The position numbers were made by a program, and so were the translations under genes. Shown here in pieces: positions 957 through 5,346 of a stretch of DNA of 64,000 bases. A model generated the notes under the pieces. The model was not told the DNA's origin. It was given only the letters and a program-made list of their open reading frames with translations, and ran no database searches. The DNA is from Euzebya rosea (lineage in GTDB: Bacteria; Actinomycetota; Nitriliruptoria; Euzebyales; Euzebyaceae). The stretch lies in assembly GCF_003073135.1 (NCBI RefSeq), contig NZ_PGDQ01000011.1, positions 1 through 64,000 of the forward strand. The letters are read 5' to 3'. The stretch's first letter is position 1, and every line of letters starts with the position of its first letter.

Positions 957-1685
957 TCAGGCGAGCCGGTCCACGATCCACCCGGCGATCATGGGTGTGG
1001 CGGTCGGTCCGGGATGGAAGCCGTCGGGGCCGAAGTCGCTCGCTGGGGTGCCGATCTCGACCACGTCCACGCCGTGTGTGGCGAGCCAGCTGGCCTGCGC
1101 CCGCCCGACCCGGCCGGTCAGGAACCCGACCAGCCGACGCAACGGTTGCGGCAGCGCGGGGGCATGCCGCAGGTCCGGGGCGCCGACGAGGACGATGCGG
1201 GCGTCGGGGGCGACGTCCCGGATGGTGTGGACCATGGCCACGGTGTCCCGACGGATGGTCCGCAGCGGCCGCCGCTTGAGGCCGTCGTTGACCCCGGCGG
1301 AGACCACCACCACGTCGGGGGCCGGCTGGGGTGCGGGGACCAGCTGGCCGGCCACGTCGACGGTCGTGTGGCCGCTGACGGCCCGCTGCTCGACGTGCAC
1401 GGGGCGGCCCGTCGCCTCGGCCAGCCGGGACGCCACCTGCCGGGGCAGGGTCAGGTCGGGATCCTGGATGCCGTCGCCCGCCATGGCGCTGTCACCGAGG
1501 GTCAGCAGGCGCAGCGGGGTGGTGTCGACCGCCGGGCCGGGCGGGGGGACGAGCCCGTCCAGCTCGTGGGGCAACCGCAACCGTCGGGCCGTGCGCCGTG
1601 CACCGACCACACCGACGACGTTGCCGATGGCCCCGCCGACGAGGAGGCCCGGGCCGAGCAGCAGCGCCAGCCGCCCGCGTGGCAT
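957..1685 (-). CDS. SGNH/GDSL-family hydrolase (lipase/esterase-like)
   Basis: The 242-residue product begins with a hydrophobic segment (about 5-28) that may anchor it in the membrane or act as a signal. The SGNH blocks follow: LLTLGDSAMAGDG holds the nucleophilic serine of block I, VVVSAGVNDG is block III with its Asn, and DGFHPG near the C-terminus supplies the Asp-x-x-His of block V. These enzymes hydrolyse ester bonds in lipids, acylated sugars or acetylated glycans; the substrate cannot be told from sequence. Its ATG overlaps the stop of the upstream surface-protein gene by one base (TGATG), so translation is probably coupled. The link to a CWB2 surface protein suggests an envelope substrate, which is inference. 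Confidence 0.85.
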   Translation of the reverse strand: MPRGRLALLLGPGLLVGGAIGNVVGVVGARRTARRLRLPHELDGLVPPPGPAVDTTPLRLLTLGDSAMAGDGIQDPDLTLPRQVASRLAEATGRPVHVEQRAVSGHTTVDVAGQLVPAPQPAPDVVVVSAGVNDGLKRRPLRTIRRDTVAMVHTIRDVAPDARIVLVGAPDLRHAPALPQPLRRLVGFLTGRVGRAQASWLATHGVDVVEIGTPASDFGPDGFHPGPTATPMIAGWIVDRLA

Positions 1686-3736
1686 CAGGTGAGCTGCCCG
1701 CGGATCGCGCCGTCGGGGAAGTCCTCGGTGTGGACGTTGACGTAATGACCGCCCGGGTCGGCGAGGATCGCCGTGCGCACCGATGGGTCGACCTCTCGGT
1801 CACACCCAGCCGATCGGCTGCCGGGTCCCAGATTCAGCGCATGCACGACTCCACCCGATTCCGTCGAGGTCCCGGCGTGGATGTGTGCGCCGGTGACCGG
1901 CGAGTCGAGCCCCTCCCAGGAGATCGACCAGCACAGCTCGTCGGCCACCCCGGTGTCGTGGAGGGTGAAGGCACCCGTCGCGTCGGGGTGCCCGGGGCCC
2001 GGGACCTCGTTGGCCCCGGACAACGCCGCGACGCGCGAGGTGCCGGGGAGGAACACCTGGCCACGGATCTCCCCGGCCGGGTTCAGGTCGGTGTGCACGT
2101 TGAGGTAGTGGGCGGCGGGGTCGGCGACCAGCGCGGCGACGGCCTGTGCCTGCTCGGCCCCACCCCTCGAGCAGCCGACCACGCGACCGTCCTGGCCGGC
2201 GACCGGCTCGAGGTGCACCGGCACGGCGACCGGGCCGGGCTCACCCGGCGGGGCGACGTGGACGTGGGCGGCCACGATCGGGCCGGACAGGTCCCACACC
2301 TCCGCATCGACGCACAGCGCGTCCTCGCCGGCGTCGGAACGCCACATCCTGGCAACCCCCGAGGCTGCCGGGGTGGCGGGGTCGGTCGCGACCTCCTGTC
2401 CGACGTCCATGACCGCCATCAGGGGGTTCTGCAGGTCCTGGCGCCCGTGCGCGGCCACGGCCTGGCCGCACAGGTCGGCCGCGAGGGTCGGACCGCAGAC
2501 CACCGGCCCGCGGCGGAACAGGACCTCGACGGTGTCCCCGGGCAGGGCTGGACGGCCACCGTCGGCCAGCACCAGCCCGCCGTGCGCGTGCAGCGCCGCC
2601 GCGAACCCGCTGGCCCATGCCGTGTCACCGAATCCCTCGACGACCACGACGCCAGCAGCGTCGGGGAACGCCCCGATGAACGACGCGGCCGTGGCGGTAC
2701 GGGTCGGCCCCGCCGCCCGGACGACGGTGTGGGCCGAGGACAGGTCCTCCTCCACTGCGGCGGGGACGGCTGCCGTGCCGCCGACGATCGTGATCCGCTG
2801 GACCCCGTGGTCGGCGAGCCACGTGCGCAGCCCGTCGTCGACGGTGTCGCCGACCAGCAGCACCGGGGTCCCCTGGACGGCCCCGAGGGCGCCGGCCCCG
2901 AGGGAGTCGGCGAAGGCCGCCGACCCCTCGCCGAACGCGCGGGCCAGCAGCACCTCGGGGATGGTGTCCCCGAGCAGCAGGTCGGCGACCGCGCGGGCGG
3001 TCTCCAGCCGGCTCGGCCCCCCGACCCGGTCGACGGTGTCAACGACATCGGCAAGGGCCTGCTCGACCTCGGCGCCGATGGCCGCCTCCAGGCCAAGGAC
3101 GATCACCCGGGTCGTGCCCAGGCGTCGCAGCTCGTCGGCGACCCGAGGGTCGAGGGTGTCACGAGGCGTCAGCAGCAGCGGCGCATCCAGCAGGCCCTGC
3201 CCGGTGCCCGAGGCGAGGGAGTCCGCGAAGCCGCCCGCGGTCCCCACGAAGGCCGTGGTCGCGCCGCCGTCGGGCAGTCGCGCGCTCCACGCCAGCGACG
3301 TGGCGATCGGGTCGGTGCCGTCCAGCGGTCCGTCGATGGGCGGTTCGCTGCTCGGCGGTTCGGTCGGTTCCGGGTCCCCGGGCCCCTCCCCCTGCTCCAC
3401 GACGGTGACGGTTCCGTTCTGGCGATCGCCGTCGGGCGAGGAGTGGATCGCGCAGTAGTACTCGAACGTGCCGACGGCGTTGAACGTCACGTCGTAGGTG
3501 GTGTTCGACGTCTGCGTCCCGGAGTCGAAGCGCTCGTCGTCGGCGGTGACGGTGTGGGTGCCCTCCACGAACGTCCAGCGGACCACCTCACCCAGCTCGA
3601 TGGTGACGTCTGCCGGTTCGTAGTCGACGTTGACCACGTCCACCTCCGCCGCGGGTTCCTGTGCCGCCGCCGGGACGGCCACGAGGCCTCCCAGCAGCAA
3701 CGATCCGACGAGGAGGACACGGGCAGCGAGCGTCAT
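1685..3736 (-). CDS. Secreted cupredoxin-CWB2-CHRD multidomain surface protein
   Basis: The product has 683 residues. A signal peptide (1-25, ending AAAQ) precedes a plastocyanin-like cupredoxin domain (about 31-113) with copper ligands His61, Cys95 and His98. The position of the usual axial Met aligns with Gln106. After a Pro/Glu/Ser linker come about three putative cell wall binding repeat 2 units (about 143-435), then two CHRD domains (about 441-562 and 563-683), each ending in a conserved HYxNVHT...GxIRGQ block. It is probably a wall-attached copper protein; electron transfer or copper binding is plausible, while CHRD function is poorly known. The start ATG has AGGAACC upstream and lies 41 bases after the GMC oxidoreductase stop. 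A longer in-frame reading upstream only shadows that gene. Confidence 0.88.
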   Translation of the reverse strand: MTLAARVLLVGSLLLGGLVAVPAAAQEPAAEVDVVNVDYEPADVTIELGEVVRWTFVEGTHTVTADDERFDSGTQTSNTTYDVTFNAVGTFEYYCAIHSSPDGDRQNGTVTVVEQGEGPGDPEPTEPPSSEPPIDGPLDGTDPIATSLAWSARLPDGGATTAFVGTAGGFADSLASGTGQGLLDAPLLLTPRDTLDPRVADELRRLGTTRVIVLGLEAAIGAEVEQALADVVDTVDRVGGPSRLETARAVADLLLGDTIPEVLLARAFGEGSAAFADSLGAGALGAVQGTPVLLVGDTVDDGLRTWLADHGVQRITIVGGTAAVPAAVEEDLSSAHTVVRAAGPTRTATAASFIGAFPDAAGVVVVEGFGDTAWASGFAAALHAHGGLVLADGGRPALPGDTVEVLFRRGPVVCGPTLAADLCGQAVAAHGRQDLQNPLMAVMDVGQEVATDPATPAASGVARMWRSDAGEDALCVDAEVWDLSGPIVAAHVHVAPPGEPGPVAVPVHLEPVAGQDGRVVGCSRGGAEQAQAVAALVADPAAHYLNVHTDLNPAGEIRGQVFLPGTSRVAALSGANEVPGPGHPDATGAFTLHDTGVADELCWSISWEGLDSPVTGAHIHAGTSTESGGVVHALNLGPGSRSAGCDREVDPSVRTAILADPGGHYVNVHTEDFPDGAIRGQLT

Positions 3737-3777: not shown

Positions 3778-5346
3778 TCAGGCGGCTCCGCGGATGGCGT
3801 CCACGGCCTTCTCGGCGATCATGATGGTCGGCGCGTTGGTGTTGCCGCCGATCAGGTCGGGCATGACGCTGGCGTCGACGACGCGCAGGCCGTCGAGCCC
3901 GTTGACGCGCAGCTGGTCGGGATCGACGACGGCGTCCTCGTGGGTGCCCATCGCGCAGGTGCCGACGGGGTGGTAGATCGTCTGCAGCTGCTGCAGGGTG
4001 GCCTGGCGGATCTCGTCCTCGCTGGTCGCGCTCGGCGGCGGGACGATCCGGTTGGCGCGGAACGGGTTGAGCGCCGGCTGGGTCAGCACGTCGTGGATGA
4101 TGTGCCAGCCGGCCATCAGCGCCTCGAAGTCGCTGGGATCGTCGAGGTAGTTCGGCTCGATGATCGGCGACCAGCGAGGGTCCGTCCCCTTCAGCTGGAT
4201 GTGGCCGACCGACCGTGGCCGCAGCAGCCCCGAGGAGCAGGTCAGCCCGTGCCCGTCGGGTTCGCGGAGCCCCTCGTCGGCGAAGATCGCGGGGGCGAAG
4301 TGCAGCTGGATGTCGGGCATCGACAACGACGGGTCGGTGCGGATGAACCCGCCCGCCTCGGCGACGTTGCTGGTCAGCGGCCCCTTGCCGCGCAGCAGGA
4401 AGTTGGCCAGGTGGTGGGGCGCGTCGGCCCCGAAGAGGCTGCCGCCCGGGGCGCCGAAGATCGGGCCGGCCATCACGTGGTCCTGCAGGTTCTGCCCGAC
4501 CCCCGGATGGTCGGCGACGACCGGGACGCCGACGTCGACCAAGTGGTGGGCCGGCCCGACACCGGACAGCATCAGCAGCTGCGGCGACCCGATGGCGCCG
4601 CTGGCGAGGATGACCTCGCGGGCCCCGACGTGCTCCACCCGGCCACGTCGCCGCACCTCCACGCCCGTGGCACGGGTCCCGTCGAACGTCACCCGGTTCA
4701 CCGGCGACTCGGTCCACACCTCCAGGTTCGGACGGTCCCTCGCCGGTGCCAGGAACGCGTCGGCGGCGCTCCACCGTCGGCCGCGGTGCTGGGTCAGCTG
4801 GTATATGCCGATCCCCTCCTGCTCCGCGCCGTTGAAGTCGTCGTTCATCGGCAGGCCCGCGTCGGCGGCGGCCTGCAGGAACGCAGGCGTCATGGGACGT
4901 GGGGACACCTGGTCGCTGACGTGCAGCGGCCCCCCGGTGCCGTGGAACCGGTCGTGCTTGGAGGCGTTGTCCTCGCTTCGCACGAAGTACGGCAGGACGT
5001 CGTCGTAGCCCCAGCCCTTGCACCCCCAGTGGTCGCGCCAGCGGTCGTAGTCGCCGCGGTGACCGCGGATGTAGATCATGGCGTTGATCGAGGAGGACCC
5101 GCCGAGGACCTTGCCGCGCGGCCAGTAGACGCGCCGATCCAGCACGTGCTTCTGCGGTTCGGTGTCGAAGTTCCAGTCCCAGCGCGAGCGGTAGAGGCTG
5201 GGGAACGCCGCGGGGATGTGCAGGTTGGCGTTGGTGTCGGGCCCGCCGGCCTCCAGCAGCAGCACCCTCGCGCCCTCGTCCTCGCTGAGGCGACCGGCCA
5301 GGACACAGCCAGCCGACCCTGCGCCGACGATCACGTAGTCGTACAT
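3778..5346 (-). CDS. GMC-family FAD-dependent oxidoreductase (choline dehydrogenase-like)
   Basis: The 522-residue product is full length for the glucose-methanol-choline oxidoreductase family. The N-terminus YDYVIVGAGSAGCVLAGRL is the FAD-binding Rossmann motif. GSSSINAMIYIRG is GMC signature 1. YHPVGTCAMG near the C-terminus carries the catalytic His, and NTNAPTIMIAEKA the second active-site polar residue (Asn). Such enzymes oxidise primary alcohols or polyols; the substrate is unknown. I chose ATG at 5346 because AAAGGG lies six bases upstream; a TTG two codons earlier would sit directly on that site. It is the first gene of the operon leading to the cupredoxin-CWB2-CHRD protein. No secretion signal is visible, so it is probably cytoplasmic. 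Confidence 0.92.
   Translation of the reverse strand: MYDYVIVGAGSAGCVLAGRLSEDEGARVLLLEAGGPDTNANLHIPAAFPSLYRSRWDWNFDTEPQKHVLDRRVYWPRGKVLGGSSSINAMIYIRGHRGDYDRWRDHWGCKGWGYDDVLPYFVRSEDNASKHDRFHGTGGPLHVSDQVSPRPMTPAFLQAAADAGLPMNDDFNGAEQEGIGIYQLTQHRGRRWSAADAFLAPARDRPNLEVWTESPVNRVTFDGTRATGVEVRRRGRVEHVGAREVILASGAIGSPQLLMLSGVGPAHHLVDVGVPVVADHPGVGQNLQDHVMAGPIFGAPGGSLFGADAPHHLANFLLRGKGPLTSNVAEAGGFIRTDPSLSMPDIQLHFAPAIFADEGLREPDGHGLTCSSGLLRPRSVGHIQLKGTDPRWSPIIEPNYLDDPSDFEALMAGWHIIHDVLTQPALNPFRANRIVPPPSATSEDEIRQATLQQLQTIYHPVGTCAMGTHEDAVVDPDQLRVNGLDGLRVVDASVMPDLIGGNTNAPTIMIAEKAVDAIRGAA

Follow-up and report, generated by a model that had tools for sequence, protein, structure and literature searches.

Three genes lie on one strand near the start of the window, which denotes the whole 64,000-nucleotide stretch of DNA that was analyzed, and the middle one encodes a protein of 683 amino acids in which a cupredoxin domain is combined with CWB2 and CHRD domains. 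The features of this locus are as follows, with residues numbered in the 683-aa protein:

957..1685, minus strand: SGNH/GDSL hydrolase gene (Pfam), the start of which overlaps the stop of the cupredoxin gene by one base
1685..3736, minus strand: gene for the cupredoxin-CWB2-CHRD protein, 683 aa, ATG start and TGA stop (Pfam, open frame; the orthologue in genome G003 is 87% identical)
1691..2029, minus strand: CHRD domain 2 with His618, His620, and His669, SOD-like predicted fold (Pfam, AlphaFold2, VIA-align)
2054..2416, minus strand: CHRD domain 1 with His491, His493, and His548 (Pfam and sequence)
2447..3304, minus strand: CWB2 region, from about residue 145 to 430 (Pfam recognizes two repeats, the best at 237-329; a degenerate third by eye)
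3389..3661, minus strand: cupredoxin domain, residues 26-116 (NCBIfam, profile, AlphaFold2, Foldseek, VIA-align)
3419..3421, minus strand: Gln106 (codon CAG), putative axial position (alignments, profile register, sequence)
3443..3445, minus strand: His98, putative equatorial copper ligand, invariant in 17/17 rows of alignment A1
3452..3454, minus strand: Cys95, putative equatorial copper ligand, invariant in 17/17 rows of alignment A1
3554..3556, minus strand: His61, putative equatorial copper ligand, invariant in 17/17 rows of alignment A1
3662..3736, minus strand: Sec signal peptide over residues 1-25, recognized by inspection of the sequence
3778..5346, minus strand: GMC oxidoreductase gene, choline-dehydrogenase-like, 522 aa (Pfam, NCBIfam)

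The frame at 1685-3736 is open, and its GC content by codon position (0.77/0.54/0.91) shows a strong coding bias, which is the pattern of a gene in a GC-rich host genome; the host is probably a marine actinobacterium. The domain order given in a preliminary description of this DNA was borne out, with a signal peptide followed by the cupredoxin domain, a proline-rich linker, the CWB2 region, and two CHRD domains. The Pfam models for CWB2 (76.3 bits against a cut-off of 24.9, 2.8e-21) and CHRD (153.7 bits against 24.1, 4.6e-45) each matched two stretches of the protein, while the cupredoxin was recognized by profile comparisons and an AlphaFold2 model. Two CWB2 and two CHRD stretches were also present in all five of the other full-length homologues scanned. 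The signal peptide and CWB2 repeats support secretion and a wall-binding module, as had been proposed, and make a location on the cell surface plausible. Since the window's genome (G000, 5.5 Mb) contains at least 159 CWB2 matches, many of them within very large proteins, CWB2 is not a special trait of the 683-aa protein.

Regarding the cupredoxin domain, the Pfam models Copper-bind (17.6 bits, cut-off 21.2) and Cupredoxin_1 (14.4 bits, cut-off 27) both scored below threshold, the former more weakly than for Met-type homologues, and the NCBIfam models for halocyanin, plastocyanin, and amicyanin gave weak matches; the orthologous domain in genome G002 exceeded both Pfam cut-offs. The domain is nevertheless considered to be real because plastocyanins and amicyanins of known structure were matched by its profile (5e-19 to 1e-14) and its model superposes on plastocyanin. 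With the profile of a 17-row alignment, 66 PDB sequences reached 1e-4 or better; plastocyanins and amicyanins were the closest matches among the best 60 of these 66. The AlphaFold2 model, built from an alignment of four sequences, had a pLDDT of 86.3 and a pTM of 0.78, and Foldseek returned 83 PDB matches at an E of 0.001 or better. In the 50 VIA-align rows shown, the Nitrosopumilus maritimus purple cupredoxin (PDB 5fc9) tied for the top position (Z 12.2, 1.5 Å, 80 residues), and the model was also superposed on plastocyanin 1bxu (Z 12.1, 1.8 Å, 82 residues) and the M98Q mutant of amicyanin 2idt (Z 10.7, 1.8 Å, 82 residues). In this structure prediction, which the preliminary description had suggested, the model superposed on plastocyanins at Z 11 to 12, whereas the ligand loop (model residues 71-80) has a mean pLDDT of only 64, which is low confidence. 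The model confirms a Greek-key cupredoxin fold, not the geometry of Gln relative to copper.

The residues previously named as the copper site, His61, Cys95, His98, and Gln106, proved to be exact. The equatorial His-Cys-His set is present in order with a C-x2-H spacing, and its three members are kept in orthologues that are 87% and 48% identical; Cys95 is the sole cysteine before residue 414. In the comparison of the 17-row profile with PDB sequences, Gln106 occupies the column of the axial Met of cyanobacterial plastocyanins, as had been claimed. A Met at the axial position, named beforehand as the finding that would overturn this assignment, was looked for and none was found in the domain: the only Met residues of the 683-aa protein are 1, 440, 443, and 464, and an axial Met ligand is excluded because residues 2-439 contain none. 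Since the axial Met of plastocyanin- and amicyanin-like cupredoxins is absent and Gln106 stands in its column, the domain is a variant rather than a plain member of this group.

The axial residue was then compared across the genus of the window's organism (genus g1). All eight related domains fetched from four of its genomes carry Gln, namely the window's domain, its orthologues in G003 and G002, paralogues in the window's genome and G003, and domains of giant proteins in the window's genome, G001, and G003. These eight domains have 12 invariant columns, the Gln column included, and the distance from the counterpart of His98 to Gln is seven residues in five of them, six in two, and two in one, such that Gln stays at the Met-x-Gly position across three loop lengths; in the overall survey described below, Met-type domains with spacings of seven, six, and two numbered 20, 6, and 93, respectively. 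A sporadic substitution is rejected because every fetched relative of this branch shares Gln (8/8), and Gln106 is not a chance letter. In total, 15 domains of the genus comprised eight with Gln and seven with Met, and two weak places (G003:C1:3520251 and 5141326) stand outside this count. In a survey of the same domain order, the architecture was found again, with Gln inside the genus and Met in both homologues outside it (G017 and G050). Judging from these alignments, Gln is fixed in one protein branch of the genus. The domain tree, which has few columns or long branches, required two changes between Gln and Met, and none of its 200 bootstrap trees showed one; the full-length tree of seven rows, to which the same limit applies, allowed a single change to Gln with a support of 88/89.

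Beyond the genus, a first sample covered 61 genomes, 41 of which had a domain match, together with three loci of another collection, and yielded 68 distinct C-x2-H domains (8 Gln and 60 Met) after two rows without C-x2-H were dropped and weaker listed places were mostly left out. A second, larger sample comprised 396 Actinomycetota genomes and was searched with a profile of the Gln-type domains, the bias of which, if any, would be toward Gln, and 169 genomes had a match at 1e-8. From it, 30 loci and 80 further regions were read, with the weakest listed and unlisted matches left out, and both samples together gave 172 distinct domains of at least 25 bits, which a script assigned to Met (146), Gln (13), no C-x2-H (10), and unclear (3). 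One of the scripted Gln cases, L069, reads H-G-Q-M and has Met by eye, and the corrected survey therefore comprises 147 Met and 12 Gln among 159 callable domains. A restriction of Gln to genus g1 is rejected since four of these cases belong to other Actinomycetota: L122 (G183), L173 (G308), L177 (G152), and L190 (G405). These four are isolated axial-Gln cupredoxins with differing loop lengths, and those of G152, G308, and G405 form one family (f41). Considering these sequences, Gln is a minority state that probably arose more than once in Actinomycetota.

The same survey contained other departures from the usual ligand set. In L128, L141, L144, and L145, the motif YFCRINPxxMNG has Asn in place of the equatorial His of C-x2-H and retains Met, and L057 has Asp at this His (YFCRFDVDKGM). 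No relatives were found on viral contigs. The plasmid search returned pieces of CHRD or CWB2 only, and none of the records reached 80% coverage of the query; a match to the 683-aa protein lies at 285428-285829 of the Euzebya pacifica plasmid NZ_CP031166.1 (571,580 bases), and another at 285092-285997 of the second contig of G003, on the same strand as the plasmid match. Judging from these two places, G003 is probably E. pacifica and genus g1 probably Euzebya.

The preliminary description had likened the site to that of stellacyanins and attributed a low redox potential to it. The exchange of Met for Gln is best known from the plant stellacyanins, with which the window domain shares the axial Gln and the two His and one Cys, as judged by register. 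As phytocyanins, stellacyanins have a conserved disulfide next to their copper, whereas the only Cys of the window domain is the ligand. No phytocyanin was present among the best 60 of the 66 PDB profile matches or the 50 VIA-align rows. Because the domain lacks the disulfide and is closest to plastocyanin and amicyanin among the matches listed, its likeness to stellacyanins is probably convergent. With the plastocyanin, amicyanin, and halocyanin types, it has in common the fold, the His-Cys-His set, and the Met-x-Gly register of the axial position, and differs from them in its axial Gln and its fusion to CWB2 and CHRD. Amicyanin M98Q, a close structural relative, represents the same exchange of Met for Gln, but is an engineered mutant.

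As for the potential, one source reports that the potential of rusticyanin decreased from 667 mV in the wild type to 563 mV in M148Q, and cites the often-drawn contrast between stellacyanin at 265 mV and plastocyanin at 375 mV (PMC11881046); a study of a green cupredoxin names stellacyanin as the example of an axial Gln ligand (PMC4059628). By analogy, these values support an axial Gln lowering the potential by approximately 100 mV relative to a Met version. A low absolute value does not follow from Gln because rusticyanin M148Q still had a potential of 563 mV, and the low redox potential assigned to the window cupredoxin can only be inferred. A natural His2-Cys-Gln type 1 copper was described in the nitrite reductase TsNirK of Thermus scotoductus (PDB 6hbe; PMC6400189), resembling the putative site in the window; this copper sits in the catalytic N-terminal domain, whereas the cupredoxin-like C-terminal copper, to which the window domain corresponds, has Met434. 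A natural axial Gln in bacteria is thus already known, and the window protein adds a putative plastocyanin-like case. Searches of the open-access literature brought up neither a report of natural axial Gln in bacterial cupredoxins of the plastocyanin-like or single-domain kind nor one on fusions of CHRD with cupredoxin.

The neighboring genes had been presented as an operon that adds a GMC oxidoreductase and an SGNH hydrolase to the copper protein. The arrangement is consistent with this, as the three genes share one strand, the GMC gene ends 41 nt before the cupredoxin gene, and the latter overlaps the SGNH gene by one base; the same gene order is found in G003, with 96% identity for the GMC enzyme and 86 to 89% for the cupredoxin protein and SGNH hydrolase. 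The functional partnership, on the other hand, was weakened. Although the GMC gene adjoins the cupredoxin gene in all three genomes with an orthologue (the window's, G003, and G002), the 522 residues of the enzyme lie within an open frame of 532, which extends at most approximately 10 residues upstream of the start, too few for a Sec signal; from its frame, the enzyme is a cytoplasmic neighbor. It is also conserved at 71% in G001, which had no CHRD match, and thus occurs without the cupredoxin protein. A direct partnership of the GMC enzyme with the window cupredoxin is unlikely. Adjacency of the SGNH gene to the cupredoxin gene is limited to the two nearest species (the window's genome and G003), and SGNH is not a fixed partner because other genes, which appear on inspection to encode a MocR-like regulator and an AzlC-like membrane protein, follow the cupredoxin gene in G002. 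The neighbors scanned included no extracytoplasmic dehydrogenase.

A dehydrogenase domain is present in the giant Gln-type relatives. All three giants have the same domain order, which runs from ThuA through glucose/sorbosone dehydrogenase, CBM6, PKD, and concanavalin-type domains to the Gln-type cupredoxin and, last, CWB2 in three copies. They comprise 2360 to 2681 aa and are located at L253:315-8342, L254:1789-8868, and L255:833-8875, with the copy in G001 running to the end of its contig. The glucose/sorbosone dehydrogenase family uses PQQ, and the presence of this putative quinoprotein-type dehydrogenase and a putative type 1 copper in one chain suggests an electron relay at the cell surface from the oxidation of sugar. 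By analogy, a similar relay may be extended to the window protein.

The CHRD domains showed a likeness to superoxide dismutase (SOD). A profile of bacterial CHRD domains found the CHRD of chordin (PDB 9rd6) at E 1.8e-8 to 1.9e-7, which belongs to the same family and has an SOD-like fold, but the chordin rows aligned without the histidines of H-x-H and N-x-H. Among 42 distinct bacterial CHRD domains, a script pattern recognized H-x-H in 39, [YF]-x-N-x-H in 38, and the two together in 37. The profiles were built from 26 of the 42 domains after most of the divergent ones were left out, such that invariance within them is not independent evidence; including all 42 did not alter the picture. The AlphaFold2 model of CHRD2, based on two sequences, had a pLDDT of 81.5 and is predicted to be an SOD-like Greek-key barrel. 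All 50 VIA-align rows shown for it were Cu/Zn SODs or the SOD-like domain of an SOD chaperone (Z 9.2 to 10.2; best superposition Z 10.2, 2.6 Å, 103 residues), while Foldseek returned nothing at E 0.001 and ranked an immunoglobulin-type chain first. The H-x-H of SOD provides copper ligands. Against sets of 9 and 12 actinobacterial SODs, the CHRD profile gave weak matches (probability 6.6 and 8.2%) in which H-x-H paired with the H-x-H of SOD and the third His was left unaligned. In the CHRD2 model, this His (model residue 101) lies in the final part of the last strand but one (96-102), the place of the fourth copper-binding His in SOD, and the two may correspond. The bridging His and the zinc-loop segment of Cu/Zn SOD have no counterpart in CHRD, which accordingly lacks the full ligand set. 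A search for Cu/Zn SOD, the only type searched for, gave no match in the window's genome.

Taken together, we lean toward the view that the 683-aa protein is an exported, wall-attached electron-transfer protein with a type 1 copper and an axial Gln106 in its cupredoxin domain. The domain would hold one copper through His61, Cys95, His98, and Gln106, and Gln would favor the oxidized state more than the Met sites of relatives do, which would make the domain suited to accepting electrons from a dehydrogenase. These electrons would be taken from an extracytoplasmic dehydrogenase and passed on at the cell surface, a role suggested mainly by the Gln-type ThuA-GSDH-cupredoxin-CWB2 relatives. By family, the CWB2 repeats would attach the protein to the wall, and the CHRD pair may be an SOD-like scaffold that possibly binds metal.

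Another possibility is that Gln106 points away from the copper, with water or nothing completing a type 1 site that would be open, like the axial site of the N. maritimus purple cupredoxin. The tie of 5fc9 for the best structural match and the low confidence of the ligand loop are in keeping with this view; however, a residue without use would not need to be invariant in 8/8 domains through three loop lengths, and loops of six and seven residues also occur in the Met-type domains counted above, and we consider an effectively empty axial site to be unlikely. The abundance of CWB2 proteins in the window's genome and the cupredoxin scores below the Pfam cut-offs would also suit a structural or adhesive surface protein, the cupredoxin of which performs no redox work and only stabilizes it or binds copper incidentally, but the invariance of the three equatorial ligands (17/17 rows) and their retention in both orthologues argue for a working site and render this account quite improbable.

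The main work may instead fall to the CHRD domains, the SOD-like copper sites of which would deal with superoxide on the cell surface while the cupredoxin feeds or drains electrons. The SOD matches of the CHRD2 model, the conserved histidines and their register with the copper ligands of SOD, and the lack of a Cu/Zn SOD match in the window's genome are consistent with this role, whereas the weak profile match with its unaligned third His, the Foldseek result, and the missing bridging His and zinc loop are not; moreover, a study on human CHRD domains describes SOD-like barrels without visible metal (PMC13382577). We regard it as very doubtful that CHRD performs the main work. We are similarly skeptical of the more far-reaching proposal of a wall-anchored three-copper protein, in which a stellacyanin-type copper and two SOD-type three-histidine CHRD coppers would handle superoxide or extracellular electrons in an organism with no detected Cu/Zn SOD. 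If this proposal is true, bacterial CHRD domains in general would represent an unrecognized class of SOD-derived copper domain. The CHRD result would offer a chemistry that can be tested for a bacterial domain that is common but of unknown function.

Returning to the electron-transfer protein with an axial Gln, the Gln-type domains constitute a genus-wide natural set of plastocyanin-like domains in which the axial Met is replaced by Gln across three loop lengths, with Met-type siblings in the same genomes. This set represents a natural experiment on the tuning of the axial ligand, which has so far mostly been studied by mutation.
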